Shown: piece by piece, positions 9,780-35,871 of the stretch
Position numbering within the stretch: the first letter of the stretch is position 1
Layout: every line of letters begins with the position of its first letter
From: Rhodospirillaceae bacterium
Lineage (GTDB): Bacteria > Pseudomonadota > Alphaproteobacteria > Dongiales > Dongiaceae
NCBI GenBank assembly: GCA_008012315.1
Contig: SSEL01000037.1
Coordinates: 62,001-126,000, forward strand
Direction: 5' to 3'
DNA: 64,000 nt
Notes under the pieces: generated by a model
Told to the model about the DNA's origin: nothing
Databases searched by the model: none
What the model saw: the letters and a program-made list of their open reading frames with translations, nothing else
Translations under genes and position numbers: made by a program

Positions 9780-10592
9780 ATGATGGCAACGATCATTCCT
9801 GCAGTTGTACCGCCTTTGCCGCGCGACAGCGGCTGGAAGCAGCATTACGGACGCGACGTCGCGTTCCAATGGCTCGCCGCCGGCTGGCGCGATTTGATGG
9901 TGCAGCCGGGCCTCAGCCTGCTCTATGGTTTCGTCGTCTTCCTGATCTCGGTGGCGATCGTTGCCGGCCTCTTCGCCTTCGGCTGGGACTACATCCTGTT
10001 CCCGGCTTTCGCCGGCTTCATGGTGGTCGGCCCCATCCTCGCGGTCGGCCTGTATGAAAAGAGCCGTCGGCTGGCGGCGGGCGAGCCGGTCACGCTCATG
10101 CGCATGACCATCGTCTTTCCGGCCTCGGCCGGGCAGATCTTCTTCACCGGCGTGTTGCTGTGTCTTCTCATGCTGACGTGGATGCGGGCAGCGGTCATCG
10201 TCTATGCGCTGTTCTTCGGCCTGCGGCCGTTTCCCGGCCTGCATCACATCATCCCCATGCTGTTCATGACGCCGACCGGCTGGGCGATGCTGGTCGTCGG
10301 CACCGCCGTGGGCGCCTTGTTCGCATCCTTCTCATTCGCCATCAGCGCCTTGTCGATCCCGATGCTGCTGGAGAAGCGGGTCGATGCCCTGACCGCCATG
10401 GGGACCAGCATGGCGCTGGTCTGGCACAACCTGCCGGTCATGCTGACCTGGGGCGCCATTATCCTCGTCCTCTTCCTGGCCAGCCTGGCGACCGGCCTGC
10501 TCGGCCTCATCGTCGTCTTTCCGCTGCTGGGCCACGGCACCTGGCATGCCTATCGCGCCGTGCAGTATCGGCGCACCGCCTCCGATGCGTGA
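9780..10592 (+). CDS. DUF2189 family integral membrane protein
   Basis: A 270-residue multi-span membrane protein with about six hydrophobic helices. Its pattern fits DUF2189: an N-terminal GWRDLMVQPGLSLLYGF and an internal ..SIPMLLEKRVDALTAMGTS.. helix. The DUF has no established biochemical function. Such genes are repeatedly seen beside cytochrome oxidase genes in alphaproteobacteria, and here it sits inside the cco cluster, 5 bases after the small protein and 36 before ccoI. ATG at 9780 and at 9783 are both possible starts. A role in oxidase biogenesis is inference. Confidence 0.8.
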   Translation: MMATIIPAVVPPLPRDSGWKQHYGRDVAFQWLAAGWRDLMVQPGLSLLYGFVVFLISVAIVAGLFAFGWDYILFPAFAGFMVVGPILAVGLYEKSRRLAAGEPVTLMRMTIVFPASAGQIFFTGVLLCLLMLTWMRAAVIVYALFFGLRPFPGLHHIIPMLFMTPTGWAMLVVGTAVGALFASFSFAISALSIPMLLEKRVDALTAMGTSMALVWHNLPVMLTWGAIILVLFLASLATGLLGLIVVFPLLGHGTWHAYRAVQYRRTASDA

Positions 10593-10628
10593 CCGGGCCG
10601 AAGCGGAACTGGAAGGGGAACCGGTGGG

Positions 10629-12956
10629 ATGACCTGCTGCGCGCCAGGGGCAACGATCGGCCTGGCCATGGCCGATGCCGCCCAGCGTGGGGACTATCGG
10701 GGCGGCGACCATCAGGGCGGGAATGAGGAATTGCGGCTGGCCAGCCGGGATCTCGGCGATGGCCTGCGGCAGAACGATCTTTCCGTGCCGGGAATTCATT
10801 GCGGCGCCTGCATCCAGCGGATCGAGCGAGCGCTGCATGACGTGCCCGGCGTGGCGCAGGCCCGGGTCAATCTCTCCACCAAGCGCGTCGCTGTCCGTTG
10901 GCGTGGCGAGACGCCGCCGCCGATCATCCCCGCCCTGGAAGCGATCGGCTATGACGCGCATCTCTTCGATGCCGGAAGCGATGAGGCTGATCCGCGCCAG
11001 AAGGACCTAATGCGCGCCTTGGCCGTTGCCGGATTTGCCTCCGGCAATATCATGATGCTGTCGATGGCGGTCTGGGCGGGTGCGGATGCAACCACCCGCG
11101 ATATTTTCCACTGGCTGTCTGCCCTGATCGCCGGCCCGACCATGATCTATGCCGGGCGCATCTTCTTCCGGTCGGCCTGGCAAGCCTTGCGCCACGGCCA
11201 GACCAACATGGATGTGCCGATCTCGATCGGCGTCTTGCTGGCTTTCGGCCTGAGCCTCTATGAGACGGTCGGTCATGGCGCCCATGCCTATTTCGATGCG
11301 GCGACCTCGCTGCTCTTCTTCCTGCTGATCGGCCGCACGCTCGACCACATGATGCGCGAACGCGCGCGGTCCGCAGTCAAAGGGCTCGCTCGTCTTGCCG
11401 CGCGCGGTGCGCTGCAGGTCCTGCCCGATGGCGGCCATGCCTATCTGCCGGTCGGGGAGATCCAGCCTGGCATGCTGCTGCTACTGGCGGCCGGCGAACG
11501 GGTGCCGGTGGATGCCGAGGTCATCTCGGGGCAATCGGAAATCGACCGCTCCCTCGTCTCCGGCGAAAGCCTGCCGCAACCCGTCCTTCCGGGGGCGCTG
11601 CTCCAGGCCGGTACGCTCAATCTCAGCGGGCCGCTGAACATCCGGGCGATGCGCGCCGCGACTGAATCGTTTCTCGCCGAAATGACCCGGATGATGGAGG
11701 CGGCGGAGGCCGGCCGATCGCATTACCGACGGATCGCCGACCGCGCGGCGCGTCTCTACGCACCCGTCATTCATCTCACGGCATTGGCCACCTGCATTGG
11801 CTGGTTCCTGGCGACCGGTGACTTGCACCGCGCCCTCACGATTGCCATCGCCGTCCTGATCATCACCTGTCCCTGCGCCCTCGGCCTGGCAGTGCCGATG
11901 GTGCAGATCGTCGCGGCCCGGCGACTGTTCGAACAGGGCATCATGGTCAGGGATGGCAGCGCGTTGGAACGCTTGTGCGAGGCCGATCACGTCGCCTTCG
12001 ACAAGACCGGCACGCTGACCCAGGGCCGTCCGCAACTGCTTGATGCCGCAGCGGTCGATCGCCGCTATCTCGCTCTTGCTGCCGGCATGGCGGTGCAATC
12101 GCGCCATCCTTATTCACAGGCTCTGGTCGCCGCCGCCCAGGCCAGGCACATCGAGGCGCGGCTGATCGATGCCGGCGCGGTGCGTGAATTTCCGGGAGCC
12201 GGCATGGAGGCGACAATCGAGGGCATCCGCTATCGGCTCGGACGCCCGGATTGGGCAGCGCTGGAAGAGGCGGGCGCGGGCTCAGGGGTGGGCGCGCCGC
12301 CAGCATCCGTCATGCTCACAGCCGACGGCCGGCCGCTTTGTGGCTTCGCTTTCCAGGATGCGCTGCGCCCCGGTGCCCAGACCGCTGTCGCTGCCTTGCA
12401 GGCGGCAGGCCTGCCGGCGGAGATCCTGTCCGGTGACCGGGCATCCGTGGTCGGCGATCTTGCCGCCAGGCTCGATATCCCGGCGGCGGGCGACTGCACC
12501 CCGGCCGGCAAGCTCGCGCGGCTCTCGGCACTGTCGGAGGCTGGCCGCAAGGTGCTGATGGTGGGCGACGGCCTCAATGACGCGCCGGCTTTGATGGCGG
12601 CGCATGTCTCGATGGCGCCGGCTTCCGCCGCCGATATCGGCCGCAATGCTGCCGATTTCGTCTTCCTGCGGGACTCGCTGACGGCGGTGCCGCTGGCGGT
12701 GGTGGTGGCGCGCCGGGCGGCGCGACTGGTCCGCCAGAATCTGATGCTCGCCATTGCCTATAACGTCATTGCCGTGCCGGTCGCCATTCTTGGACTGGTG
12801 ACGCCGCTGATTGCCGCCATTGCGATGTCGCTGTCCTCGATCCTGGTGGTCGCCAATGCCTTGCGCTTCGGCCGGCCGGCCCGGCGGGCAAAGCGCGGCG
12901 ACGAGCAGCCTGGCAGGACCGCGACATATCCGGCGGCGGGACGCGCCGCGGAATGA
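10629..12956 (+). CDS. ccoI: copper-translocating P1B-type ATPase for cbb3 assembly
   Basis: A 775-residue P-type ATPase of the CcoI/FixI class. It exports Cu(I) to the periplasm for insertion into the CcoN haem-copper centre. An N-terminal Cys pair (MTCC) and a heavy-metal domain with GIHCGACIQRIE (about 56-67) come first. Then follow a TGES-like actuator (VSGES), the metal-binding CPC in helix 6 (TCPCALG), the phosphorylated DKTGTLTQG loop, the HP motif (SRHPYS) and GDGLNDAPAL. It is coupled to ccoS through an ATGA overlap. cco clusters usually also contain ccoG and ccoH before ccoI; neither is recognisable here. Confidence 0.95.
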   Translation: MTCCAPGATIGLAMADAAQRGDYRGGDHQGGNEELRLASRDLGDGLRQNDLSVPGIHCGACIQRIERALHDVPGVAQARVNLSTKRVAVRWRGETPPPIIPALEAIGYDAHLFDAGSDEADPRQKDLMRALAVAGFASGNIMMLSMAVWAGADATTRDIFHWLSALIAGPTMIYAGRIFFRSAWQALRHGQTNMDVPISIGVLLAFGLSLYETVGHGAHAYFDAATSLLFFLLIGRTLDHMMRERARSAVKGLARLAARGALQVLPDGGHAYLPVGEIQPGMLLLLAAGERVPVDAEVISGQSEIDRSLVSGESLPQPVLPGALLQAGTLNLSGPLNIRAMRAATESFLAEMTRMMEAAEAGRSHYRRIADRAARLYAPVIHLTALATCIGWFLATGDLHRALTIAIAVLIITCPCALGLAVPMVQIVAARRLFEQGIMVRDGSALERLCEADHVAFDKTGTLTQGRPQLLDAAAVDRRYLALAAGMAVQSRHPYSQALVAAAQARHIEARLIDAGAVREFPGAGMEATIEGIRYRLGRPDWAALEEAGAGSGVGAPPASVMLTADGRPLCGFAFQDALRPGAQTAVAALQAAGLPAEILSGDRASVVGDLAARLDIPAAGDCTPAGKLARLSALSEAGRKVLMVGDGLNDAPALMAAHVSMAPASAADIGRNAADFVFLRDSLTAVPLAVVVARRAARLVRQNLMLAIAYNVIAVPVAILGLVTPLIAAIAMSLSSILVVANALRFGRPARRAKRGDEQPGRTATYPAAGRAAE

Positions 12957-22605: not shown

Positions 22606-23424
22606 ATGAGGCTGCCTTTCTGGATCGGCACCGGCTGGAAGATGAACAAGACCTTGGCCGAAGCGCGCGACTATGTCGGCACGTTGCGGCGATCCGCGAT
22701 CTGGCGGGATGACCGGCTGCGGCCTTTCATCATCCCGCCTTTCACCGCTTTGGCGACGGTGCGCGATGAGCTGGGGGAGGATGCGGCCACCAATGGTCAC
22801 GGCATCCTGCTCGGTGCCCAGAACATGCATTGGGCGGATCGCGGCGCCTATACCGGCGAGGTCTCCCCGTTGATGGTCAAGGATTGCGGCGCCGGCCTGA
22901 TCGAGCTTGGCCATTCGGAGCGCCGGGCACTGTTCAACGAAACCGATGAAGCAGTCAATCTCAAGGTGAAGGCGGCGTCGCGGCATGGCCTGCGCCCGCT
23001 GATCTGTGTCGGCGAAACCGGCGCGGAACGGCAAGCCGGCCAAGCGGTGGAGACGGTGACGCGCCAGCTGCGGATCGCCCTTGCCGGCATCGAGCCTGCC
23101 GGCTTGAAGCAGGTGCTGATCGCCTACGAGCCGGTCTGGGCGATCGGTGATGGCGGTGTGCCGGCGACCCCGGATGAGGCCAATGACATGCATGTCGAGA
23201 TCCGCCGCGCGCTCGCCGCGCTCGGCCCGGCAGCGGCCGATATCCCGGTGCTTTATGGCGGTAGCGTTAATCGGGCGAACTGTGTCGCATTGGCGCGGCA
23301 GCCGGCGGTGGATGGGCTTTTCATCGGCCGTTCCGCCTGGGAAGCCACGGGTTTCCTGGGAATCATCGCTTCGATCCAGGCCGTGCTGCCGACTCGGGAC
23401 AAGCCGTCGGCCGGGTCGCTATAG
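22606..23424 (+). CDS. tpiA: triosephosphate isomerase-family protein (possible L-erythrulose-1-phosphate isomerase)
   Basis: A 272-residue TIM barrel. The catalytic residues of triosephosphate isomerase are all present: Lys in GTGWKMNKT, His in ELGHSERR and Glu in YEPVWAIG, with phosphate loop YGGSVNRAN. The start is GTGWKMNKT, where housekeeping TpiA has GNWKMN. This variant is typical of the EryH/LerI/TpiA2 branch that isomerises L-erythrulose-1-P to D-erythrulose-4-P. With the adjacent RpiB-type enzyme it would feed D-erythrose-4-P to the pentose phosphate pathway. Plain TpiA activity cannot be excluded. Confidence 0.9.
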   Translation: MRLPFWIGTGWKMNKTLAEARDYVGTLRRSAIWRDDRLRPFIIPPFTALATVRDELGEDAATNGHGILLGAQNMHWADRGAYTGEVSPLMVKDCGAGLIELGHSERRALFNETDEAVNLKVKAASRHGLRPLICVGETGAERQAGQAVETVTRQLRIALAGIEPAGLKQVLIAYEPVWAIGDGGVPATPDEANDMHVEIRRALAALGPAAADIPVLYGGSVNRANCVALARQPAVDGLFIGRSAWEATGFLGIIASIQAVLPTRDKPSAGSL

Positions 23425-23460
23425 TAGCGGCCGTCTTAGCGGGGCAAGGTGACGCAAAGA

Positions 23461-24231
23461 ATGTCGATGACGGCGAATGAACGGCGCCAGGTGCTGCTCG
23501 ACCACATCATGAAAGCCGGGTCGGCACAGGTCGATGAACTGGCGACGCAATTCGCGGTCAGCCGGATGACCGTGCATCGCGATCTCGATGTGCTGGTGGA
23601 GCAGGGGATCGTCCGCAAGGTGCATGGCGGCGTCACCATGCATCCGTCCAGCCTGGTCGAAAGCAATCTCATCTATCGCAGCCAGCTCGCGGCCAAGGAA
23701 AAGGCTGCCATTGCCCGCGCCGCCGCCGGCTATATCGAACCCGGCCAGGCGATCATCCTGGACGATTCCTCCACCGTGGCGGCGCTCACCTATCATCTGC
23801 CGGCTTTGAAGCCGCTGACCGTCATCACCAACAGCCTTGGGGTGATCGATCGGCTGAAGGACGCCCATGGGGTAAAAACGCTTTGCCTGGGCGGCGATTA
23901 CAATGCCCGGTTCAATGCCTTTTTCGGCCTGCTCTGTGAACAGGCGATCGCCTCGCTCCGGGCCAATACGCTTTTCATGTCGGTGTCAGCGGTCATCGGT
24001 ACCATGGCCTATCACCAGGAAGAAGATGTTGTTAAGGCCAAGCGCGCCCTGATGGCTGCGGTGGATCGGCGCATCCTCTTGGTTGACAGCACGAAATTCG
24101 CTATGACGGCGCTGAACCGGCTGGCCGGCCTGTCGGAGTTCGATCTCGTCATCACCGATGAGGGCGTCGAACCGGCACAGATGGCGGCCTTGCGCGATGA
24201 AAAGATCAATGTGGTCGTCGCCCCGCTGTGA
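23461..24231 (+). CDS. DeoR-family transcriptional regulator
   Basis: A 256-residue sugar-responsive repressor. The N-terminal DeoR HTH (RRQVLLDHIMKAGSAQVDELATQFAVSRMTVHRDLDVLVEQG) is followed by the KVHGG hinge and the DeoRC sensor domain, with SNSLGVIDRL- and DSTKF-type phosphosugar-binding loops. Ligands in this family are sugar phosphates, so intermediates of the isomerases upstream are candidates. The AT-rich palindrome before rpiB is a likely target. A GTG at 23449 is an alternative start. Confidence 0.9.
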   Translation: MSMTANERRQVLLDHIMKAGSAQVDELATQFAVSRMTVHRDLDVLVEQGIVRKVHGGVTMHPSSLVESNLIYRSQLAAKEKAAIARAAAGYIEPGQAIILDDSSTVAALTYHLPALKPLTVITNSLGVIDRLKDAHGVKTLCLGGDYNARFNAFFGLLCEQAIASLRANTLFMSVSAVIGTMAYHQEEDVVKAKRALMAAVDRRILLVDSTKFAMTALNRLAGLSEFDLVITDEGVEPAQMAALRDEKINVVVAPL

Positions 24232-24277: not shown

Positions 24278-25273
24278 ATGTCGGAACAGGCACTTAAAGT
24301 AGATCAATCGGCGGGAACCGCCCAGGACAAGCTGGCGCAATTGTCGCGCATGACGATGATCGTCGCCGATACCGGCGATATCGATGCGGTGAAGGCTTTC
24401 TCGCCGGTCGATTGCACCACCAATCCCTCGCTGATCTTCAAGGCTGCCCAGATGCCGGCCTATGCCCATCTGGTGCAGGAAGCCCGCGCCTGGGGCGAGG
24501 GCCAGGGCAAGACCTCGGAAGAGCGCCTGGATGCGGCGCTGGACCGGCTTGCCATCGCCTTCGGCACGGAATTGTCGCGCCTGGTGCCGGGCCGGGTTTC
24601 GACCGAGGTCGATGCTGCCCTTTCTTTCGATACCGAGGCGACGATCCGCAAGGCGGAACGGCTGATCGAGCTTTACGAGCAAGCCGGCGTGCCGAAATCT
24701 CGTATCCTGATCAAGATCGCCGCGACCTGGGAAGGCATCCGCGCGGCGGAGCGCCTGGAACGGGCCGGCATCAACTGCAACCTGACGCTGCTCTTCGGCT
24801 TTGCCCAGGCGACGGCCTGCGCCGATGCCGGCGTCTTCCTGATCTCGCCCTTCGTCGGCCGTATTCTCGACTGGCATGTGGCGCGGGGCGAGAGCTTCGC
24901 ACCGGGCGAGGATCCCGGCGTCGCCTCGGTCCGCCGCATCTATGAACATTACAAGCGGCATGGTTATCAGACCGTCGTCATGGCGGCGTCGTTCCGCAGC
25001 ACCGCGCAGATCGAAGCCCTGGCCGGTTGCGACCGCATGACGATCAGCCCGGCCTTGCTGACGGAGCTGCGCGGCCAGACCGGCGATGTGACGCGCCGCC
25101 TGGTGACGGGCGCCGAGACCGCGCCGCGCCCCGGCGCCGGATCGGAAACCGCCTTCCGCTGGGCGCTCAACGAAGATGCGATGGCGACGGAAAAGCTGGC
25201 CGACGGGATCCGCCTCTTCAATGCCGATGGCGTGAAGCTGCGCCAGTTCATTGCCAAGGCCGGTAAAGCCTGA
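24278..25273 (+). CDS. tal: transaldolase
   Basis: A 331-residue class I transaldolase of the TalB length class. It transfers a dihydroxyacetone unit from sedoheptulose-7-P to glyceraldehyde-3-P, giving erythrose-4-P and fructose-6-P. Signatures are [13 protein letters not shown] near the start, the Schiff-base Lys in [12 protein letters not shown] and [18 protein letters not shown], with [10 protein letters not shown] closing the barrel. Its place in the operon makes sense if the island produces erythrose-4-P that must enter the pentose phosphate network. A terminator follows 31 bases after the stop. Confidence 0.95.
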
Positions 25274-25304
25274 CGTCGAAGATCACTGCGAAAGTTTGTG
25301 TGGT

Positions 25305-25344
25305 AAGCGGCCTCGCCGGGAGCACTCCTGGGGGGCCGCTTTTC
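25305..25344 (+). terminator. intrinsic terminator after transaldolase
   Basis: AAGCGGCC (25305-25312) pairs with GGCCGCTT (25333-25340), followed by TTC; the inner region also pairs weakly. It closes the rpiB-tpiA-deoR-tal unit and separates it from the SorC-type gene. Confidence 0.65.
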
Positions 25345-25440
25345 ATATATGGCTGTGCTTTGGAAAGGCGTCTGGCCTCATCCGGGAGAAGGCCGCTATA
25401 CTCGGGTCGAGATTGTGCTTCAGCTTTGGTGGTTTTTGGC

Positions 25441-26421
25441 ATGCGCATCGTTCCCGGCCGCTTCAATTGCGATCCGATCCTTCAGGCAGCGTGGCTTTAT
25501 TATCACGACAACCTGACGCAGCAGGAGATCGCCGATATTCTCGGTGTGTCGCGCGCGACGGTGATCAATTATCTCAATTCCGCGCGCGACCAGCATGTGG
25601 TCACGATCAGCGTAAAGCCCGAGGTGATGAACACCATTTCGCTCGCACAGGAGTTGTGTGAGCGGTTTGCGTTGGAAGATGCACTGATCATTCCGGAAGA
25701 TGGTGGCCGCGGGAACCTCATCGATCGGATCGGCGCGGCGGCAGCGCATTATATCGGCCTGTCCTGCCAGAGCGGCGATGTCATCGGCGTTGCCTGGGGA
25801 CGTACCGTGCTGGCCATGTCGACCCGCGTCCCGCCCACCACCGCGACCGATCTCAAGGTCGTGCAGATCGTCGGCAGCATGCTGCTGGATGACGGCACCT
25901 CGGCCGAAGTCTGCACCGCCAATATCGCCCATCGTCTTGGCGCGGTCTGCGTCAACCTGCATCTGCCGGCCTTGCTCAGCAGCCGCGACTTGCGCGACGC
26001 GCTGATGACGGAGGCCATGGTGGTCGATCAATTCGACCTCATCCGGCGCTGCAGCCAGGTCTATTTCGGCATCTGCACCCTGGAGCGGGACAGCCTCGTC
26101 TATAACAGCGGCCTCACCACGCCGCAAAGCAGCATCACCTATCAGGAAGGTGGCGCCGTCGGCGTCATTGCCGGCCGCTTCTATGACCGGCAGGGACGTC
26201 CGGTACTGGCGGAAATCGACGACCGCCGGATCGGCATCACGCTGCAGGAACTGAAAGAGATTCCGAAGCGCATCGCCGTCGCCGGCGGACCGGAAAAGGT
26301 GAAGCCGATCCTGGCGGCCCTGGTCGGCGGCTACGTGACGACGCTGATCACCGATGAAGCGACCGCGCGCGGGGTTCTCGCCGAAGCGGATCAGCCGGCG
26401 AACCTGCGGCAGGCCGGCTGA
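25441..26421 (+). CDS. SorC-family transcriptional regulator
   Basis: A 326-residue regulator of the SorC/DeoR-like sugar-binding family. The N-terminal HTH reads AAWLYYHDNLTQQEIADILGVSRATVINYLNSAR. The C-terminal domain (about 60-315) contains GVAWGRTVLAM, GDVIGV and the GRFYDRQGRPV..EIDDR.IGI block that binds phosphorylated sugars. EryD of the erythritol operon belongs to this family. ATG at 25441 is chosen; a longer frame upstream overlaps the terminator. It converges with dhaL and probably controls the divergent dhaKL/transporter promoters. Confidence 0.92.
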   Translation: MRIVPGRFNCDPILQAAWLYYHDNLTQQEIADILGVSRATVINYLNSARDQHVVTISVKPEVMNTISLAQELCERFALEDALIIPEDGGRGNLIDRIGAAAAHYIGLSCQSGDVIGVAWGRTVLAMSTRVPPTTATDLKVVQIVGSMLLDDGTSAEVCTANIAHRLGAVCVNLHLPALLSSRDLRDALMTEAMVVDQFDLIRRCSQVYFGICTLERDSLVYNSGLTTPQSSITYQEGGAVGVIAGRFYDRQGRPVLAEIDDRRIGITLQELKEIPKRIAVAGGPEKVKPILAALVGGYVTTLITDEATARGVLAEADQPANLRQAG

Positions 26422-26427
26422 CGATCC

Positions 26428-27087
26428 TCAGTTCGTCAGCGCGGCGACACCTTGCGCCATGGTGCGCAGGGTGATGAAGGTCGAGGCGGCACCCGGATCC
26501 ATGTGACCCAGGGACCGCTCGCCGAGCTTGCTGGAGCGGCCTTTCTTCGCCGTCATATCAGCCGTCGCCTTCATGCCGCTTTCCGCGCCGCTCGCCGCCG
26601 CCTGCAGGCAATCGGCCAGCGATTTCCCATCCGCCAGGGCGGCTTTCGCAGCAGCGACGGCCGGCATCCAGGCATCGACCATGGTCTTGTCGCCGGGTTC
26701 CGCCTTGCCGCGATCGACGATGCCCTGTGCGGCGGCTTCGATGAAGGCGACCATGGTGGCGGCATCGAGAGTCTCGCGGCCTTTCAGCGCCGCGCCGCCC
26801 CGCATGAAGGCGGTGGCGTAAAGTGGCCCGGCCGAGGCACCGACGGCATTCAGGAAGGCCTTGGCGGCGGTATTGCAGATATCGGTGAAGCTCTTATCCG
26901 CGCCGATGCCGGCCAGCGCTTCGCGGACGGCAGTCCAGCCGATCGCCATGGTGACGCCGTGATCGCCATCGCCGATCACACCGTCGAGATCGGACAGCCA
27001 CCCCTTTTCCGCCTCGATCGCTTCGCCGATCCGGTTGAACAGGGCGACGAATTGAGCCGGTGTGATCTGTTGTATCGTCTCAGTCAT
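26428..27087 (-). CDS. dhaL: dihydroxyacetone-kinase-type subunit DhaL (nucleotide domain)
   Basis: A 219-residue all-helical DhaL domain that carries the nucleotide. The Mg-ADP-binding Asp cluster is intact in DLDGVIGDGDHGVTMAIGW. SAGPLYATAFMRGGAAL and the C-terminal KKGRSSKLGERSLGHMDPGAAS are the further nucleotide-contact loops. It works with DhaK, encoded 19 bases upstream in the same direction, to phosphorylate dihydroxyacetone or a C4 ketose such as L-erythrulose. No PTS DhaM is nearby, so the pair probably uses ATP directly. Confidence 0.92.
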   Translation of the reverse strand: MTETIQQITPAQFVALFNRIGEAIEAEKGWLSDLDGVIGDGDHGVTMAIGWTAVREALAGIGADKSFTDICNTAAKAFLNAVGASAGPLYATAFMRGGAALKGRETLDAATMVAFIEAAAQGIVDRGKAEPGDKTMVDAWMPAVAAAKAALADGKSLADCLQAAASGAESGMKATADMTAKKGRSSKLGERSLGHMDPGAASTFITLRTMAQGVAALTN

Positions 27088-27106
27088 GGGATCTCTCGAA
27101 TAACGG

Positions 27107-28117
27107 TTAGGCGACCTGGAACATCGCGCAGCGGCAGGGATGGTCGAGATGCTTCTTCAGATCGGCATCGAGCTTCATCAGCGTCACCGACATACCGGCC
27201 ATTTCCAGCGAGGTGACATAATTGCCGACGAAAGACCGATGGATCTTGATCCCGGCCTCGTCCAACCGCTGCTTGACCCGGCGATGCACGACATAAAGCT
27301 CCATCAGCGAGGTGGAGCCGAGCCCGTTCACCAGCAAGGCGACTTCATCGCCGGCACCGGCTTTCGCTTCCGCCAGGATACCGTCCACCAGGCTGTCGGT
27401 AACCGCATCGGCGCTTTGCAGCTTGCCGCGCGCGACACCGGGCTCGCCGTGAATGCCCATGCCGATTTCCATCTCGTCCTCGCCGATCTCGAAATTCGGC
27501 TTCAGCGTATGGGGCAGCGAGCAGGGACCGAGCGCGACGCCCATCGTATAGGTGGCGCGATTGGCCTTTTCCGCCACGGCGACGACAGCGTCCAGATCCA
27601 GCATCTGGTCGGCCGCCGCACCGGCGACCTTGAAGACGAAGAAATCGCCGGCGACGCCGCGCCGCTCTTTCCATTTATCCGCCGGGGCGGAGGCAACGTC
27701 ATCGGTGACGAGCACGGTGCGGACAGTGATGTCTTCCATCGCACACATCTCGGCCGCCATGTCGAAGTTCATCACGTCGCCGGCATAGTTGCCATAGAGA
27801 TAGACCACACCGGCGCCGCCATCGATCGCCTTGGTCGCCTCGATGATGGGATCGGGCGCCGGGGAGGCAAAGACATTGCCGACGGCGGCGGCATCGGCCA
27901 GGCCCTTGCCGACATAGCCGAGGAAGGCCGGCTCATGGCCCGATCCGCCGCCGATCAGGATGCCGACCTTGCCGTCGCGCGGGCCGTCCACGGCCACGAT
28001 CGATCTGGGATTGCTGTCCAGGCGGCGCAGGATGTCGCCATGGGCGCCGATGACGCCGTCCAGCATCTCGGTGATGATGTTGTTGGCATCGTTGATCAAT
28101 TTTTTGGTCTTGGCCAT
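27107..28117 (-). CDS. dhaK: dihydroxyacetone-kinase-type subunit DhaK (substrate domain)
   Basis: A 336-residue substrate-binding subunit. The ketose-binding GGGSGHEPAFLGYVGKGLADAA and VFASPAPDPI are present, as is MEIGMGIHGEPGVARG, whose His forms the hemiaminal with the substrate carbonyl. The ATG at 28117 follows GGGGAG; the frame runs on to 28168 without support. DhaK-type kinases in tetritol operons (LerK/DerK) act on erythrulose, so the substrate may be C3 or C4. It is transcribed divergently from the ABC importer. Confidence 0.92.
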   Translation of the reverse strand: MAKTKKLINDANNIITEMLDGVIGAHGDILRRLDSNPRSIVAVDGPRDGKVGILIGGGSGHEPAFLGYVGKGLADAAAVGNVFASPAPDPIIEATKAIDGGAGVVYLYGNYAGDVMNFDMAAEMCAMEDITVRTVLVTDDVASAPADKWKERRGVAGDFFVFKVAGAAADQMLDLDAVVAVAEKANRATYTMGVALGPCSLPHTLKPNFEIGEDEMEIGMGIHGEPGVARGKLQSADAVTDSLVDGILAEAKAGAGDEVALLVNGLGSTSLMELYVVHRRVKQRLDEAGIKIHRSFVGNYVTSLEMAGMSVTLMKLDADLKKHLDHPCRCAMFQVA

Positions 28118-28162
28118 TTGCCACTCCCCGCAATCGAAGCTGATGAGAGTGATAATTACATC

Positions 28163-28261: not shown

Positions 28262-29740
28262 GTGACGAGCAAGCTCGACTTCATGACATCATCATCCGGC
28301 CTGTCGCGCCGCCATGTATTGAAAGGCGCCGCCGCCGCGGCTTCGGTTGCGGGCTTCGGCGGATTGTCGCGCCTGGCTTTGGCGGACTCGCCGCTGAAAG
28401 GCGAATCGCTGCATCTCTCCATCCTCGGTATCGCCGGCTGGGTGCCGTCCTCGCTCGGTGTGAAGATGTCGCCGATCTTCGCGGAATACGCGAAGCAGAA
28501 ATACGGTTACGACGTCGATTTCAGCTTTGCCGATGCGCCCTTCTCGGCCTTGTTCCAGAAGGCGGCGACCTCGCTGGCGACCCGCTCGCAGGAATACAAT
28601 ATCATCATCTCCGACAGCCAGTGGCTGGGTGCTTTCGCCAAGCCGAAATGGGTCGTCAAGATCGACGATCTGCTGAAGGAGCAGCCGGGCCTGACGCCGG
28701 AATGGTATTCGCCGGTCATCAGCGCCACTTACCAGACCTATCCGGACGGCTCGCAGCAGCTCTGGGGCCTGCCGCAGGAAGGTGACGTGGTCGCCCTTTA
28801 TGTTCGCAAGGACATGCTGGAAGACCCGGCGGAGAAAGAAGCCTTCAAGAAAAAATACAATAAGGATCTGCCGCAGACCTTCGACGATTTCGCCGAGCTC
28901 ACCATGGCGGAGTTCGAAAAGGTCGCTGAATTCTTCACCCGGCCGGACAAGAACCTCTACGGCACGGCGATGCAGTATTCGCGCGAATACGATTTCATCA
29001 GCTGCTTCCTCTATCCCTTCATGTGGAGCCGCGGCGGCGAGATCTGGGATCCGAAGACCGCGCAGGTGCACGGCATCCTCAACAGCAAGGTCAATGCCGA
29101 AGCCCTCGAGCAGATGAAGCATTGGCTGAAATACATGCCGGACGGTGCGCTGAATTACGGCATTGCCGAGGAAATCGACGTCTTCACCCAGGGCAAGGTC
29201 TTCTCCTGCTTCCAATGGGCGGCCGTCGGTCCGGCGATGATCCCCGATGCGCTCAAGGGCAAGGTCATGGTGGTGCCGCCGCCCAAGCATGGCAACGGCT
29301 CGGATGCCAAGCGCGTCTATACCTTCGGTGGCCAGTCCTGGGTCATCAACGCCTTCAATGACGAAAACAACATGCAGGCGACGATCGACTTCATGCGCTG
29401 GTGGTATCAGCCGGACGTGCAGCTCGAATATGCCAAGCGCGGCGGCAATCCCTGCGACAAGGCGACCTTGTCGCGCTCCGATTTCGACGATATGCAGCCA
29501 TGGTTCCGCACCTATAAGTATATGCTGGCGGAAGGCCGGTCGCGGGACTTCTGGCACCATCCGAAATATGCCGAAATGCTCTCGGTGCAGCAGGAAGCCT
29601 TCACCAGCTTCATGACGGGACAGACCAGCGATCCGATGAAGGTGCTGGATTATGTCGCCTGCAAGCAGCAGAGCATTTTGTTCGAGGCCGGTACGGCGAA
29701 GGAGAAGGCGCCTGATACTTGCGCCAGCATCAGCCTCTAA
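28262..29740 (+). CDS. CUT1-type ABC transporter substrate-binding protein (Tat-exported)
   Basis: A 492-residue periplasmic solute-binding protein for a sugar or polyol. The GTG at 28262 follows GGGGAGG closely; ATG at 28283 is the alternative. The Tat signal SRRHVLKGAAAAASVAGFGG is followed by a long hydrophobic stretch, implying export after folding. The mature protein is large for the family and has the extracellular binding protein type 1 layout, with ..GLPQEGDVVALYVRKDMLEDP and FTFGGQSWVIN-like stretches. It heads the transporter operon opposite dhaKL. The ligand is not readable. Confidence 0.9.
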   Translation: MTSKLDFMTSSSGLSRRHVLKGAAAAASVAGFGGLSRLALADSPLKGESLHLSILGIAGWVPSSLGVKMSPIFAEYAKQKYGYDVDFSFADAPFSALFQKAATSLATRSQEYNIIISDSQWLGAFAKPKWVVKIDDLLKEQPGLTPEWYSPVISATYQTYPDGSQQLWGLPQEGDVVALYVRKDMLEDPAEKEAFKKKYNKDLPQTFDDFAELTMAEFEKVAEFFTRPDKNLYGTAMQYSREYDFISCFLYPFMWSRGGEIWDPKTAQVHGILNSKVNAEALEQMKHWLKYMPDGALNYGIAEEIDVFTQGKVFSCFQWAAVGPAMIPDALKGKVMVVPPPKHGNGSDAKRVYTFGGQSWVINAFNDENNMQATIDFMRWWYQPDVQLEYAKRGGNPCDKATLSRSDFDDMQPWFRTYKYMLAEGRSRDFWHHPKYAEMLSVQQEAFTSFMTGQTSDPMKVLDYVACKQQSILFEAGTAKEKAPDTCASISL

Positions 29741-29873: not shown

Positions 29874-30857
29874 GTGCAGAGTAATCGTTCCGGTTCACCA
29901 GCAAGCCGCGGCTTGCTTGCGGCGATGCATCCGACCGGCCAGGCAGGGTTGACGGCGCGGTTTTTTGCGCTGCTGAATGACCGGCGCTTTCTGCCGCTCA
30001 TGCTGCTGACCCCGGTTCTCGTCTTCTTCATCATCTGGAACACGATCCCGTTGCTCTGGCTGCTGGGCCTCAGCTTCCAGAAATATTCCTTGACCAGCGG
30101 CGACGACCCGGCCTTTACCGGCTTTGCCAATTATCTGGAGATTCTCGGCAACAGCTCGGTCTGGCAGGATCTCAGCCGGACCTTTGTCTGGGTCTTCCTG
30201 AGCGTCGTCCTGCAGACCGGCCTTGGCGTCGCGCTTGGTTTCCTGTTCTGGGGCAGCCACAAGCTGCCGGGCCGCCGCATCGCGCTGACATTGCTCTTCG
30301 CGCCGATGGTGCTGACGCCGGTCGCGACCGGCACCTTCTTCCGGCTGATCTATGATCCGACCTTCGGCATCCTCAACCAGGTGATCCGCGCCATCGGCTT
30401 GCCTTCGGTCGATTTCCTCGGCCAGTCATCGACGGCCTTCTGGGCGGTCCTGGCCGTCGATACCTGGATGTGGACGCCGTTCCTGATGCTGATGACCCTG
30501 GCGGCGCTCGGCTCGGTACCGAAGGCGGAACTGGAAGCGGCGGAAGTCGATCAGCTTCCCTGGCACCAGCGCTTGCGCCTGATCATTCTGCACCACGGCA
30601 AGTTCATCCTGATGCTGGGCGTCCTGCTGCGCACCATCGATAGTTTCAAGACGATGGACTTGGTCCTGCAGATGACCAAGGGCGGCCCGGGCTCGACCAC
30701 CAATCTGGTGGCGCTGACCCTCTACCGCCAATCCTTCGAGAGCTTCAATCTCGGCTGGTCATCGGCGCTCGCCGTCATCCTGCTGCTGATCTCCATCGCC
30801 TTCACCTCGATCTTCATCTTCGTCCTCAATCTCAAGCGGCGGGGAGATGCGGCATGA
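29874..30857 (+). CDS. ABC sugar transporter permease 1
   Basis: A 327-residue inner-membrane permease of the MalF/UgpA type. It has about six helices and the EAA loop ..ELEAAEVDQLPWHQRLRLIILHHG (normally EAAxxDGAxxxxxFxxIxxP), which docks to the ATPase. The GTG at 29874 follows GGGGAGG. The protein starts with a roughly 30-residue hydrophilic tail. Overlaps permease 2 by four bases (ATGA). Confidence 0.92.
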   Translation: MQSNRSGSPASRGLLAAMHPTGQAGLTARFFALLNDRRFLPLMLLTPVLVFFIIWNTIPLLWLLGLSFQKYSLTSGDDPAFTGFANYLEILGNSSVWQDLSRTFVWVFLSVVLQTGLGVALGFLFWGSHKLPGRRIALTLLFAPMVLTPVATGTFFRLIYDPTFGILNQVIRAIGLPSVDFLGQSSTAFWAVLAVDTWMWTPFLMLMTLAALGSVPKAELEAAEVDQLPWHQRLRLIILHHGKFILMLGVLLRTIDSFKTMDLVLQMTKGGPGSTTNLVALTLYRQSFESFNLGWSSALAVILLLISIAFTSIFIFVLNLKRRGDAA

Positions 30858-31681
30858 GCAATCTGCGCCAGACCCTCTACCACGCCTTGCTGTGGCTGAT
30901 CTCGCTGCTGTTCTTCTCGCCGGTCGCCTGGCTGATGCTGTCCTCCTTCAAGGGCCGGAACGACATTCTGGCGGTGCCGGCGAAACTCGTCTTCACGCCG
31001 ACTTTGGATAACTATGTCCAGCTCTTCGAGCGCAACGGCTTCCTGCAGCAATTGCTCAACAGTTTCATCATGTCGGTCGCCGCCGTGATCGTTGCGGTGG
31101 TCGTGTCGTTCCTGGCGGCTTTCTGTTTTTCGCGTTTCAAGCCGAAGGGCACGGACTTCCTGATGTTCCTGCTGCTCTCGGTGCGCATGTTGCCGGGAAC
31201 GGCGGTGATCCTGCCGGTCTATCTGATGTATGTGGCCTTCGGCTGGAAGGACAGCCATGCCGCGCTGACCCTGTTCTATGCGATGTTCTCGATCCCCTTC
31301 TCGGTCTGGATCCTGAAGGGCTTCATCGATGGCGTTTCGCTGCGCTTCGATGAAACCGGCCTGGTCAATGGTGCGTCCTGGTGGCATGTGATCTTCCGCG
31401 TGGTGCTGCCGCAGGTGCGGCCCGGGCTGATCGCCGCCTTCATCTTCAACATGATCTTCGTCTGGAACGAATTTCTTTTCGACTACATCATCGGCGGCCG
31501 CAAGACGGCCAATGTCCCGGTCGCCCTGGCGACCGGCGCCTATGCCGATGGCGGTGTCGACTGGGCTTTCGTATCGACCCTGTCGACGGTCTATCTGCTG
31601 CCGCCGATCATCGCCATTTACGTTTTCCAACGGTACCTGCTGGTCGGCATGACCTTCGGGACGGTGCGGGGAGAAGTCTGA
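30854..31681 (+). CDS. ABC sugar transporter permease 2
   Basis: A 275-residue MalG/UgpE-type permease with six helices. The EAA-type loop reads FDETGLVNGASWWHVIFRVVLPQVRPGL, and the usual MLPGTAVILPVYLMY segment is present. It pairs with permease 1 to form the translocation channel. Its stop TGA shares a base with the ATG of the next small gene. Confidence 0.92.
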   Translation: MSNLRQTLYHALLWLISLLFFSPVAWLMLSSFKGRNDILAVPAKLVFTPTLDNYVQLFERNGFLQQLLNSFIMSVAAVIVAVVVSFLAAFCFSRFKPKGTDFLMFLLLSVRMLPGTAVILPVYLMYVAFGWKDSHAALTLFYAMFSIPFSVWILKGFIDGVSLRFDETGLVNGASWWHVIFRVVLPQVRPGLIAAFIFNMIFVWNEFLFDYIIGGRKTANVPVALATGAYADGGVDWAFVSTLSTVYLLPPIIAIYVFQRYLLVGMTFGTVRGEV

Positions 31682-31965
31682 TGGTCGCGACCAGATCCTT
31701 CCCGGTCAAGGCGGAGATCGTGCTGATCTGCGCCATGCTGATCGGCTTCGCGCTGATCGCCCAGCAATGGAGCATGACGCTCTATAAAGTCGGCCTCGGA
31801 ATCGTCGTGCTGTCGACCTTGCTGGAAATCGCCGTAGGCAATCTGCCAAAGACGGCCTCGGTCGGCCGCAGCCTGACGATCATCGCCGTTATCCTGGCCA
31901 TCGTGCTCGCCGTCTTCCTGATCGGCATTGCGCTGGTTCCCTATCTGACCAATTTGGGGCGCTGA
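31681..31965 (+). CDS. small three-span membrane protein in ABC operon
   Basis: A 94-residue hydrophobic protein with predicted helices at about 12-28, 33-50 and 63-87. It is translationally coupled on both sides (one-base overlaps at 31681 and 31965), so its expression is tied to the permeases and ATPases. Some polyol importers, such as rhizobial glycerol GlpSTPQUV, also encode a small membrane protein in the operon (GlpU) and two ATPases; this one may play the same unknown role but is not recognisably homologous by eye. Confidence 0.75.
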   Translation: MVATRSFPVKAEIVLICAMLIGFALIAQQWSMTLYKVGLGIVVLSTLLEIAVGNLPKTASVGRSLTIIAVILAIVLAVFLIGIALVPYLTNLGR

Positions 31966-33095
31966 TGACGAGTGTCGCCTTTTCCGGATTGACCAAGAGC
32001 TATCGCGGCACGCCTGCGCTGGACGATCTCACGCTGACGGTGCGCGCCGATTCCCTGACGGTTCTTTGCGGCCCGCCGCAATCGGGTAAATCGGTGCTGC
32101 TGCGCCTGCTGGTCGGGCTGGAGAAAACCGATTCCGGCCAGATCGTCGTCGATGGGCAGGATGTGACAAAGCTGCCGCCGGGCGGCCGGCGCATCGGCTA
32201 TGTGCCGCAATCCTTCGCACTCTATCCGCATCTGACGGTCTATGAAAACATTGCTTATCCGATGCGCCTGCAAGGTGCCCGGAATGCCGATATCGCTGCG
32301 AAGGTCGAGCGCGCCGTCCAGCTGCTGTCGATCGGCCATCTTTTGAAGAAACGGCCGGATCAGCTTTCCGGCGGCGAGAAGCAGCGCGTGGCGATTGCGC
32401 GGGGGCTGCTCAAGGATGCGCAGATCTTCGTGCTGGACGATCCGCTGGTCGGGCTGGACTACAAATTGCGCGAACGCCTGATGGATGATCTGCGGACCAT
32501 GCGGCGGGAATTGGGCGCGACATTCCTTTACGCCACCTCCGATGCCTTGGAGGCGCTGACCATGGCCGAGGATATCGTGGTGATGGATCGCGGCCGCGTG
32601 GTCGAACATGCGCCGGTGGACCGCCTTTATCACGAGCCGCAGCATCTTCGCTCGATGGAGCTGGTCGGTTTCCCCGGCAGCAACCTGTTGCCCGGCCGGA
32701 TCGATGCCGGCATCTGCGTGACGCCGATCGGCCGGTTCGCCGTGACTCCGGAGGCGACCGCTCCGGACGCGACGGCCCCGGCAAACGGGGCCGAGGTCAT
32801 CGTCGGCTTGCGCCCGGAGGCGGTCGAGTTGCAGCCTGCGGGGACCGGTCAGCTAAGCGGGCAGGCCAGCGTCAGCCTGGTAGAGGATCTGGGCGGTGAA
32901 CAGGTGGTCTATCTGGAGACCGGCGGGCTGACGCTCGTGACCTGCCTCTCGGTCGGGCGCGGCGAGACGCCGGCTTATGGCCAGACGGTTGCCTATCGTT
33001 TCGATCCGGCAGCGGCGGTGATTTTCGATCCGGCATCCAGCCGGCGTGTCGGTTGTGGTTGTTTCGAGGGGCAGGAGAAGATCCGCCATGCCTGA
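31965..33095 (+). CDS. ABC transporter ATPase A (degenerate Walker B/H-loop)
   Basis: A 376-residue MalK-type ATPase with a C-terminal TOBE-like regulatory domain (about 240-360). Walker A is G36-PPQSGKS and the signature LSGGEKQ (134-140) is canonical. The catalytic Glu after Walker B is replaced by Asp (FVLDDP, D159), and the switch His is Ser192 (ATSDALEAL instead of THDxxEA). This subunit therefore probably binds ATP but hydrolyses it poorly. The partner ATPase has the reverse defects. Its last 8 bases overlap ATPase B. Confidence 0.92.
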   Translation: MTSVAFSGLTKSYRGTPALDDLTLTVRADSLTVLCGPPQSGKSVLLRLLVGLEKTDSGQIVVDGQDVTKLPPGGRRIGYVPQSFALYPHLTVYENIAYPMRLQGARNADIAAKVERAVQLLSIGHLLKKRPDQLSGGEKQRVAIARGLLKDAQIFVLDDPLVGLDYKLRERLMDDLRTMRRELGATFLYATSDALEALTMAEDIVVMDRGRVVEHAPVDRLYHEPQHLRSMELVGFPGSNLLPGRIDAGICVTPIGRFAVTPEATAPDATAPANGAEVIVGLRPEAVELQPAGTGQLSGQASVSLVEDLGGEQVVYLETGGLTLVTCLSVGRGETPAYGQTVAYRFDPAAAVIFDPASSRRVGCGCFEGQEKIRHA

Positions 33096-34173
33096 TATTC
33101 GCCTGGATGCCATCACCCGCCGCTTCGGCCAGCAGGTCGCCGTCGACAATCTCTCGATGACCTTCGATGAATGGACGGTCACCTGCCTGCTGGGGCCGTC
33201 TGGCTGCGGCAAGACCACGCTGATGCGCATGATCGCCGGCCTTGAAACGCCGACATCCGGCCGGATCTTTTTCGGCGAGCGAGAGGTAACCCATCTGCCG
33301 CCGCGCAAGCGCAATATCGGCATGGTGTTCCAGTATCCGGTGATGTATCCGACCTTGACGGTACGCGAGAACATCGCCTTGCCGCTGGACAACAATGCCG
33401 GCCTGGATGCAAAGACGTGCCAGGCACGGATCGACGAAGTGCTGAACATCCTGCAGCTCGGTGCCGTGGCCAATCGCTATATCGATCAGCTCGATGCCGG
33501 CACCCGCCAGAAGGTCGCCGTGGCGCGGGCGGTGGCGCGGCAGACCGATATCATCCTGTTCGACGAACCGACCACCAATGTCGAGGTCAATGCCAAGCTG
33601 CAATTGGTCCGGGCCTTCAAGGAAGTCGCGCAGCGCATGCGCCAGACGATCATCTATGTGACCCATGACCAGACCGAGGCGATGACGCTGGCCGACCAGA
33701 TCGCCTTGATGCGGTCGGGGGCGATCGTGCAATGCGACAAGCCGCGCGCCCTCTATAACCACCCGACCACGGAATTCGGCGGCTGGTTCCTCGGCAGCCC
33801 GGGCATGAATTTCATCACCGCCGCCGTCAAGGGCGGCCGGATCGAGGCGCCGCTTTTCCCGGCGCCGATCGCCGCACCGTCCGGCATTGCGGAAGGTGAG
33901 ATCACGCTTGGCTTGCGGCCTGAGGCCCTGCGTCTGCAGGCTGCGCCCGGTGCCGGGACCGTGCCGGCGGTGATCGAGGATATCTCCATTACGATCGGCG
34001 GGCGGTATCTTTTCCGTCTTGGCATCGGCGGCATTTCCGTGAAGGTTAAGCATGCTGGCGGCGCCGTGTCGGGATTGGAGATGCGGCGCGGGGCAACGGC
34101 GCATCTGGAATGTCCGCCGGCACAGATCGCATTCTTTTTAAAGGGCCAGAGGGTCGCGGCTGCGGCCGGCTGA
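33088..34173 (+). CDS. ABC transporter ATPase B (degenerate signature/D-loop)
   Basis: A 361-residue MalK-type ATPase. Walker A GPSGCGKTT (36-44), Walker B ILFDEP with Glu160 and the switch His193 (VTHDQTEAM) are canonical. The LSGGQ signature is changed to LDAGTRQ (135-141) and the D-loop SNLD to TNVE. Paired with ATPase A it would form one complete ATP site (B Walker motifs with A signature) and one degenerate site. The ATG at 33088 gives the normal family start; the frame upstream overlaps ATPase A. The TOBE-type C-terminus is present. Confidence 0.92.
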   Translation: MPDIRLDAITRRFGQQVAVDNLSMTFDEWTVTCLLGPSGCGKTTLMRMIAGLETPTSGRIFFGEREVTHLPPRKRNIGMVFQYPVMYPTLTVRENIALPLDNNAGLDAKTCQARIDEVLNILQLGAVANRYIDQLDAGTRQKVAVARAVARQTDIILFDEPTTNVEVNAKLQLVRAFKEVAQRMRQTIIYVTHDQTEAMTLADQIALMRSGAIVQCDKPRALYNHPTTEFGGWFLGSPGMNFITAAVKGGRIEAPLFPAPIAAPSGIAEGEITLGLRPEALRLQAAPGAGTVPAVIEDISITIGGRYLFRLGIGGISVKVKHAGGAVSGLEMRRGATAHLECPPAQIAFFLKGQRVAAAAG

Positions 34174-34192: not shown

Positions 34193-35134
34193 ATGCGCTA
34201 TGACGTCAGCGTCGTCGGTTTGTACATCCTGGATATTCTCGGCCGCCCGGTCAGCCAGATTCCGGCCGGCGGCAATGTCGAGTTCATCGACCAGATCCGC
34301 CTGACGGTGGCCGGCACTGCCGGCGGCACGGTGGTCGATTGCGCCAAGCTCGGTCTGCGGTGCCAGGCGGTCGGCGCCGTCGGGGAGGACGAGAAAGCTG
34401 ATTTCGTCATCCAGCAATTACAGAAATTCGACATCGATACCGCCATGATGCAGCGCCTCTCCGGGGTGCCGACATCGGCGACGATCCTCAATATCCGCCC
34501 CAATGGCGAGCGCCCGGCGCTACATATGCGCGGCGCCTCCGATCATTTCGATATCCCGGAATCCGCCTATGACCGGGTCTTCGATGCGGAGATCATCCAT
34601 CTCGGCGGCACCGGCCTGCTGCGCAAGCTGGACGGTGCACCCTCGGTCAAGTTTCTCGCCGAAGCCAAGAAGCGCGGCCGGGTCACCACCTTCGACCTGA
34701 TCGCGGCGCGGCCGGAGACGATCGGGATCGTCGAGCCGATGCTGCCCTATATCGATTATTTCATGCCCAGCATCGAAGAGGCGCGCGACATGTCGGGCCT
34801 GACCGATGTCGGCGATGTGGCGAAATTCTATCTCGATCGTGGCGCGCAGACCTGCGTCTTCACCATGGGCGGCGAGGGCAGCTATGTCGCGACCAAGGAT
34901 GCGAAGCTGCGGGTGCCCGCTTTCGAAATCGACGTGGTCGACACGACCGGCTGCGGCGATGCCTATGATGCCGGCTTCATCGCCGGCTTGCGCCATGGCT
35001 ACGATCTCGAAACCTGCGCCCGTTTCGCCACGGCGGCCTCGGGCCTGGTGGCGACCGGGCTCGGCTCCGATGCGGGTATCGTCAGCTTCGAGGATACGCT
35101 GCAAGAGATGCGCAGCCTGCGCGTCAAATCATAA
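34193..35134 (+). CDS. PfkB-family carbohydrate kinase
   Basis: A 313-residue ribokinase-fold kinase that phosphorylates a sugar hydroxyl with ATP. The C-terminal signature DTTGCGDAYDAGFIAGL contains the catalytic Asp and anion hole; the usual DTTGAGDAFxAG has Ala-to-Cys and Phe-to-Tyr changes. The N-terminal GGTVVDCAKLGLRCQAVGAVGEDEKADFV is the substrate-lid part. It lies 19 bases after ATPase B and 20 before the aldolase, so it most likely phosphorylates the imported or partly processed substrate. Confidence 0.92.
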   Translation: MRYDVSVVGLYILDILGRPVSQIPAGGNVEFIDQIRLTVAGTAGGTVVDCAKLGLRCQAVGAVGEDEKADFVIQQLQKFDIDTAMMQRLSGVPTSATILNIRPNGERPALHMRGASDHFDIPESAYDRVFDAEIIHLGGTGLLRKLDGAPSVKFLAEAKKRGRVTTFDLIAARPETIGIVEPMLPYIDYFMPSIEEARDMSGLTDVGDVAKFYLDRGAQTCVFTMGGEGSYVATKDAKLRVPAFEIDVVDTTGCGDAYDAGFIAGLRHGYDLETCARFATAASGLVATGLGSDAGIVSFEDTLQEMRSLRVKS

Positions 35135-35154: not shown

Positions 35155-35871
35155 TTGAGGGATATGGCACGGGCGGCATACAAGGCGATTGCGGACAAGA
35201 TCATCTGGGTTTGCCGGGAAATGAATCGTCTCGGCATCAATCAGGGGACGTCCGGCAATGTCAGCGCCCGTGTGCCTGATGGTTTCCTGATCACGCCTTC
35301 CGGCCTCGGCTATGACAACATGGCGGCGGAGCAGATCGTTGAGATGGATCTGGATGGCGGCTATCGCGGCGACCTGCTGCCCTCCAGCGAATGGCGCATG
35401 CATCAGGCGATCTATGCCGGCCGGCCCGAAGCCCAGGCGGTGCTGCACGCCCATCCCACCCACGCCACGGCGTTGAGCTCACTGCGCGAAAGTATCCCGG
35501 CTTTCCATTACATGGTGGGTGTGGCCGGCGGTATCGATATTCGCTGTGCCGATTATGCGACCTTCGGCACGCAGGCGCTCAGCGATCACATGCTGGCGGC
35601 GCTGCGGGACCGGTCGGCCTGCCTGCTGGCCAATCACGGCATGATCTGTTTCGCCAAGACCCTCGAGAAGGTGCTCGGCCTCGCCGTCGAAGTGGAATCG
35701 CTCTCGCGGCAATATCTCGAAGCCCGCCATGTCGGTGAACCGGTGGTGCTGTCGGCGGCGCAGATGGATGAAGTGCTGCAGCGCTTCCAGACCTATGGCA
35801 AGCAGCCCGGCGACCTGCCGCCGGGCCATGCCGCCGCAGCCGACGCACTCCATCGCATTGACCGCGCTTAA
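35155..35871 (+). CDS. class II aldolase/adducin-family protein (fuculose-phosphate-aldolase-like)
   Basis: A 238-residue zinc aldolase fold. NQGTSGNVSARVPDGFLITPSGLGYD is the phosphate-binding N-terminus, SSEWRMHQAIY holds the catalytic Glu, and HAHPTHATAL plus ANHGMICF hold the zinc His residues. Members split ketose-1-phosphates to dihydroxyacetone phosphate and an aldehyde, or epimerise ribulose-5-P. After a PfkB kinase the aldol cleavage of a phosphorylated sugar is likely. Start TTG at 35155 or ATG at 35164 is uncertain. A 138-bp repeat begins 5 bases after the stop. Confidence 0.9.
   Translation: MRDMARAAYKAIADKIIWVCREMNRLGINQGTSGNVSARVPDGFLITPSGLGYDNMAAEQIVEMDLDGGYRGDLLPSSEWRMHQAIYAGRPEAQAVLHAHPTHATALSSLRESIPAFHYMVGVAGGIDIRCADYATFGTQALSDHMLAALRDRSACLLANHGMICFAKTLEKVLGLAVEVESLSRQYLEARHVGEPVVLSAAQMDEVLQRFQTYGKQPGDLPPGHAAAADALHRIDRA

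Follow-up and report, generated by a model that had tools for sequence, protein, structure and literature searches.

The window, a 64,000-nucleotide stretch of contig SSEL01000037.1 from a Rhodospirillaceae bacterium, encodes an ABC importer with two different MalK-type ATPases, A and B, whose motif losses are complementary. Judged from sequence, the two proteins very probably serve a CUT1-type importer for a polyol or ketose, as an A/B heterodimer that would offer one hydrolyzing and one ATP-holding site. For a symmetric machine with two ATPs, the maltose importer is the standard textbook example. The lopsided motor described here looks like a selected design, with one working and one holding pocket, rather than the outcome of decay. 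The sequences of homologous pairs support extending the one-site asymmetry from a single pair to a family-wide rule.

Operon organization and predicted substrate

The forward strand of the window carries, in this order, the genes of a substrate-binding protein (SBP; 28283..29740), permease 1 (29874..30857), permease 2 (30854..31681), a small integral membrane protein of 94 residues (31681..31965), ATPase A (31965..33095), ATPase B (33088..34173), a PfkB-family sugar kinase (34193..35134) and a class II aldolase (35155..35871). The SBP is of the SBP_bac_1 family (PF01547, 3e-18), starts with MTSSSGLSRR and has a Tat-type signal, SRRHVLKG. Both permeases match PF00528 (3e-7 and 3e-13, respectively), and permease 1 is UgpA/GlcT-like. 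From permease 1 through B, neighboring genes overlap by 1 to 8 bases, and these overlapping transporter genes are one operon; after B, the gaps are about 20 bases (19 between B and the kinase gene). The longest listed open reading frame of B starts with a GTG at 33046. Most likely, however, translation starts at the ATG at 33088, which follows a GGAG, gives a protein beginning with MPDIRLD and produces an 8-base overlap with A.

The neighboring kinase (PF00294, 1e-45) and aldolase (PF00596, 2e-54) suggest a ketose or polyol, probably a small one, as substrate. The aldolase is L-fuculose-phosphate aldolase-like, with a score of 248 bits against NF005984 that lies below the family cut-off of 264. 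Head to head with the SBP gene, dhaL and dhaK, encoding dihydroxyacetone kinase subunits, occupy 26431-28123 of the reverse strand. Upstream of them are genes for a transaldolase (24278-25273) and a triose-phosphate isomerase (22606-23424), together with regulators of the DeoR type (23449-24231) and of the SorC type (25300-26421). This gene set suggests a catabolic island for a polyol or ketose around the SBP gene.

All motif losses fall in one ATP site of the predicted heterodimer

ATPase A (376 residues) has a Walker A motif GPPQSGKS (residues 36-43), the Q-loop Gln, a normal D-loop (GLD) and the signature LSGGEKQ (residues 134-140; 32364..32384, this and the following on the forward strand). 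Its Walker/switch half is degenerate: Asp159, within the Walker B sequence VLDD, occupies the catalytic Glu position (32439..32441) and Ser192, within YATSD, that of the switch His (32538..32540). ATPase B, 361 residues long from the ATG to its end at 34173, has a good Walker A motif (GPSGCGKT), Walker B motif (LFDEP, with E160) and switch His (H193). Its signature is replaced by LDAGTRQ (residues 135-141; 33490..33510) and its D-loop reads NVE, within TNVE (33577..33585). The original prediction had named the signature, Asp159 and Ser192 of A and the Walker B, His, LDAGTRQ and TNVE of B, and each of them was found, those of A under the same numbering. The two ATPases are 31% identical. Their AF2 models have pLDDT values of 90.8 (A) and 94.4 (B); that of B shows the MalK fold, and its best solved Foldseek matches are MalK-type chains. 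PF00005, PF08402 and PF17912 were found, with OB_MalK of A under its cut-off; an ABC_tran domain followed by a C-terminal TOBE/OB domain, together with the MalK fold, identifies the ATPases as MalK-type.

In ABC dimers, one domain contributes the Walker motifs, Q-loop and H-loop to a nucleotide site and its partner contributes the signature; in TM287/288, the TM288 D-loop extends to the nucleotide that occupies the degenerate site (PMC7756269). Hence, the Walker half of A together with the signature and D-loop of B would make up one site gathering all the losses, and the Walker half of B together with the signature and D-loop of A the other site, with zero losses. The partition of residues bears out the earlier claim of one complete and one degenerate site; the heterodimer that this claim presupposes is deduced from sequence. 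Loss of the signature, replacement of Glu by Asp and loss of the switch His are the changes listed for human degenerate sites, TAP especially (PMC7756269), and the losses of the window pair match this set.

Among 30 MalK-type ATPases compared in the genome, 26 have the SGG signature, DEP and the switch His intact. The four deviants are the proteins of two tandem pairs, the window pair and a GlpST-like pair (C79:24184-26371). The latter belongs to an operon with DUF2160, of the GlpST glycerol-importer type, and is partitioned as in the window: the A-type protein has YATTEP at the switch His, the B-type protein LGADAKQ at the signature. The 29 nearest UgpC-type relatives are canonical at all motif positions. 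The motif losses of the window pair in this genome are more than chance would give.

The unequal partition is conserved in 77 pairs

A check proposed with the original prediction was whether defects always fall in complementary halves in operons with two such ATPases, GlpS/GlpT included. They do so in all 77 readable pairs, and the result that would have spoken against it, a homologous pair with both sites canonical, occurs in 0/77. The A-type protein invariably keeps SGG and lacks the switch His, while the B-type protein lacks LSGG and keeps the Walker motifs, Glu and His. The set comprises 48 GlpST pairs of the class, 20 GlpST pairs of other classes, 8 pairs of a second operon kind and the window pair. 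This absence of exceptions covers pairs found via GlpT, SBP, B and DUF2160 searches, and the 77 pairs are not counted as independent events in statistics, since most share ancestry.

When 385 genomes of the class were searched with GlpT, 48 had matches, and 48 complete GlpS/GlpT pairs were read, one of them in the window's genome. LSGGQ, Glu and the D-loop Asp are kept in 48/48 GlpS proteins, with the switch His replaced by Thr (39) or Ser (9). Conversely, Walker A Lys, Glu and His are kept in every GlpT protein and LSGG in none of the 48. GlpS (for example L058, 7272-8411) has also lost the aromatic A-loop residue, with Val there in 45 of 48 proteins, which adds to the losses of the already degenerate site. 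In other classes of the phylum, reached via DUF2160, the partition is identical in 20 of 20 GlpST pairs.

Searching with the window SBP revealed the second operon kind in 8 genomes, with the gene order A-SBP-permease-permease-B-small membrane protein and one copy cut by a contig end; 8 complete pairs were read, including one added by the phylum scan. All eight have Pro at the switch His of A and Glu at the third signature position of B. The consensus-site motifs are intact, except that the first signature residue, Leu, is Ala in two A proteins. At the loci of this kind (L057, L117, L118, L120-L123 and L154), the ATPase genes stand at opposite ends and the B signature reads AEG, GEG or SEG. L120 also carries a homologue of the window PfkB kinase (357 bits), and at L154 the A-SBP-permease-permease-B operon is followed by a third ATPase (10417-11091), truncated and lacking Walker A.

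In the 57 pairs that were tabulated, the consensus site does not change and the residues of the degenerate site vary: the switch His becomes Thr, Ser or Pro, and the SGG of the signature becomes TAD, GAD, SPD, AEG, DAG or others. Walker A Lys and Walker B Asp are retained in both subunits of 57/57 pairs. The degenerate site can therefore plausibly bind ATP, and probably does.

The window pair is the most degenerate one seen. It alone among the 57 has additionally lost the catalytic Glu and the D-loop Asp; Asp for the catalytic Glu is found in no other A-type, the D-loop Asp is present in every other B-type, and the two extra losses affect the site that is degenerate in the other pairs too. Close orthologues of the pair were absent from its own order, the class sample, plasmids and the contig collection, the best match of A elsewhere being 40% identical, so that selection on the window pair itself is not measurable. 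Its small protein and SBP are those of the second operon kind; its ATPases lie closer to GlpST. Compared with the second kind, the SBP is 30-35% identical, the permeases score about 155-223 bits and the small protein 20 bits; the ATPase genes, split in A-SBP-P-P-B, are adjacent in the window.

Ancestry of the A-type and B-type ATPases

In a tree of 67 ATPases from which the motif columns carrying the trait had been removed, the A-types (window A, GlpS and second-kind A) stand apart from all others (94/92), and the B-types form a single clade (91/89). Window A is nearest to GlpS (88/79) and window B to GlpT (99/98), both on long branches, and the inner order matches in A and B. This matching order argues for one old duplication followed by joint inheritance of the pair. 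AU tests of two alternative groupings gave p values of 0.09 and 0.06; with these values and the long window branches, a single old duplication is favored, not proven.

Alternatively, the unequal pair could have arisen separately in the three operon kinds, which would concern its origin only and would be compatible with the mechanism proposed below. Second-kind B shares 47% identity with canonical UgpC proteins, each operon kind has its own substitutes for the lost residues, and the AU tests do not reject the two other groupings. Against this, the best tree sets the A-types apart, unites the B-types and gives both the same inner order, and we regard separate origins as unlikely. A broader reading, in which a widespread and hitherto unnoticed branch of MalK-type sugar/polyol importers works with a single hydrolyzing site and a long-lived ATP-holding site, an arrangement that arose repeatedly, each time through loss of the switch His from one subunit and of the signature from its partner, appears quite improbable from these sequences.

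Proposed mechanism and competing readings

From the observed residues, their partition and its conservation, we infer heterodimerization and hydrolysis at a single site. In a binding-protein-dependent CUT1-type importer, the two permeases would rest on an obligate A/B ATPase heterodimer. The site formed by the Walker half of B and the signature of A has consensus motifs and would hydrolyze ATP. The site formed by the Walker half of A and the signature of B, without switch His, catalytic Glu, signature and D-loop Asp, would show little or no hydrolysis and could act as a hinge keeping both subunits together through several cycles.

Decay, in which a duplicated ATPase pair is turning into pseudogenes and the complementarity is due to luck, could explain the long branches of window A and B and the extra losses at Glu159 and in the D-loop. 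However, all frames are intact and overlapping, both AF2 models are confident, the extra losses are confined to the already degenerate site, and the partition is kept in 76 other pairs across classes, which makes decay highly unlikely. Hydrolysis at both sites, with the lost motifs functionally compensated, could draw on the slow hydrolysis that remains possible when Asp replaces Glu (PMC7756269), but 77/77 pairs have lost both the switch His and the signature, and the window pair Glu and the D-loop Asp as well, and we consider this reading very improbable. That A and B are separate homodimers for different transporters or states, as would suit MalK-type ATPases, which are normally homodimers and some of which serve several transporters, is hardly tenable: in A2, His and Glu would be missing from both sites, and in B2 the signature, both genes lie inside a single operon with one permease pair, and A and B are co-inherited with matching trees.

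This importer family, in which one site is disabled in all members examined, offers a natural test of the need for two hydrolysis events per import cycle. It could also show if importers follow the holding-site model drawn up for exporters. With the GlpST operon, the question is directly testable in culturable rhizobia.

Comparison with known transporters

The window ATPases share the fold of MalK/UgpC of CUT1 importers, including the TOBE/OB domain. However, MalK/UgpC proteins (E. coli MalFGK2) form homodimers in which both sites are equal and of consensus type, whereas the window encodes two unlike ATPases with complementary losses.

The closest parallel in composition is GlpSTPQUV, the glycerol ABC importer of Rhizobium leguminosarum with two ATPases (Ding et al. 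2012, as cited in PMC7912956); its passages on GlpST make no mention of unequal ATP sites. Common to both systems is a pair of unlike MalK-type ATPases whose sites are unequal in the same way, along with two permeases, a binding protein and a small membrane protein. On the other hand, the window ATPases are only about 30-37% identical to GlpS/GlpT, and the gene order is SBP-P-P-small-A-B instead of A-B-P-P-U-V. The small protein after permease 2 is not DUF2160 (GlpU), and the SBP is not recognizably related to that of the genome's GlpST operon. Catalytic Glu and D-loop Asp are missing from the window pair in addition. Moreover, the genome carries its GlpST set separately, besides the window operon. 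GlpT relatives are 52-68% identical to the genome's own GlpT, and of the two loci in this genome a GlpT search at 1e-80 returns that of C79, not that of the window.

In heterodimeric exporters, one subunit lacks the signature and the other has Asp for Glu and, in TAP, an altered H-loop (PMC7756269). TAP, TM287/288 and BmrCD thus show the same set of changes at the degenerate site as the window pair, but have the exporter fold and the opposite transport direction and, as pairs, are not related to it. Among importers, the fused CUT2 ATPases RbsA and NupO, of sugar and nucleoside importers, have one degenerate site (PMC11466899); they differ in having two domains in one chain, other defects (loss of the Walker A Lys) and type II permeases. 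The DppDF importer, with two different ATPases, is reported to have functional motifs in both (PMC12136057). The original prediction had called this asymmetry well known in some exporters, which is correct, and little noted in sugar importers, which fails for the fused CUT2 ATPases RbsA/NupO (PMC11466899) and stands for MalK-type importers with separate ATPases, for which no report was found. Novelty is confined to the latter: no statement of a complementary unequal pair in MalK-type importers was found in the openly accessible literature, and no solved structure of one was among the PDB matches.

The small membrane protein

The 94-residue protein has no Pfam family, and a match to PF09928 (DUF2160) is absent even at E 10. 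It is related to the small membrane protein encoded after B in 8/8 second-kind operons (20.1 bits, compared with 7.6 for the best of 1000 shuffles), and by analogy with GlpU it is possibly an extra importer subunit. Such a protein was considered as a hallmark of unequal pairs and rejected, as short DUF2160-like proteins also adjoin single canonical ATPases. Shortened DUF2160-like proteins are encoded at G429:C335:142353-142526 (beside L135), G623:C48:30614-30790, G635:C78:42833-43006 and G280:C7:318647-318829, and several of these four, including that of G429:C335, adjoin single canonical UgpC-type ATPases.
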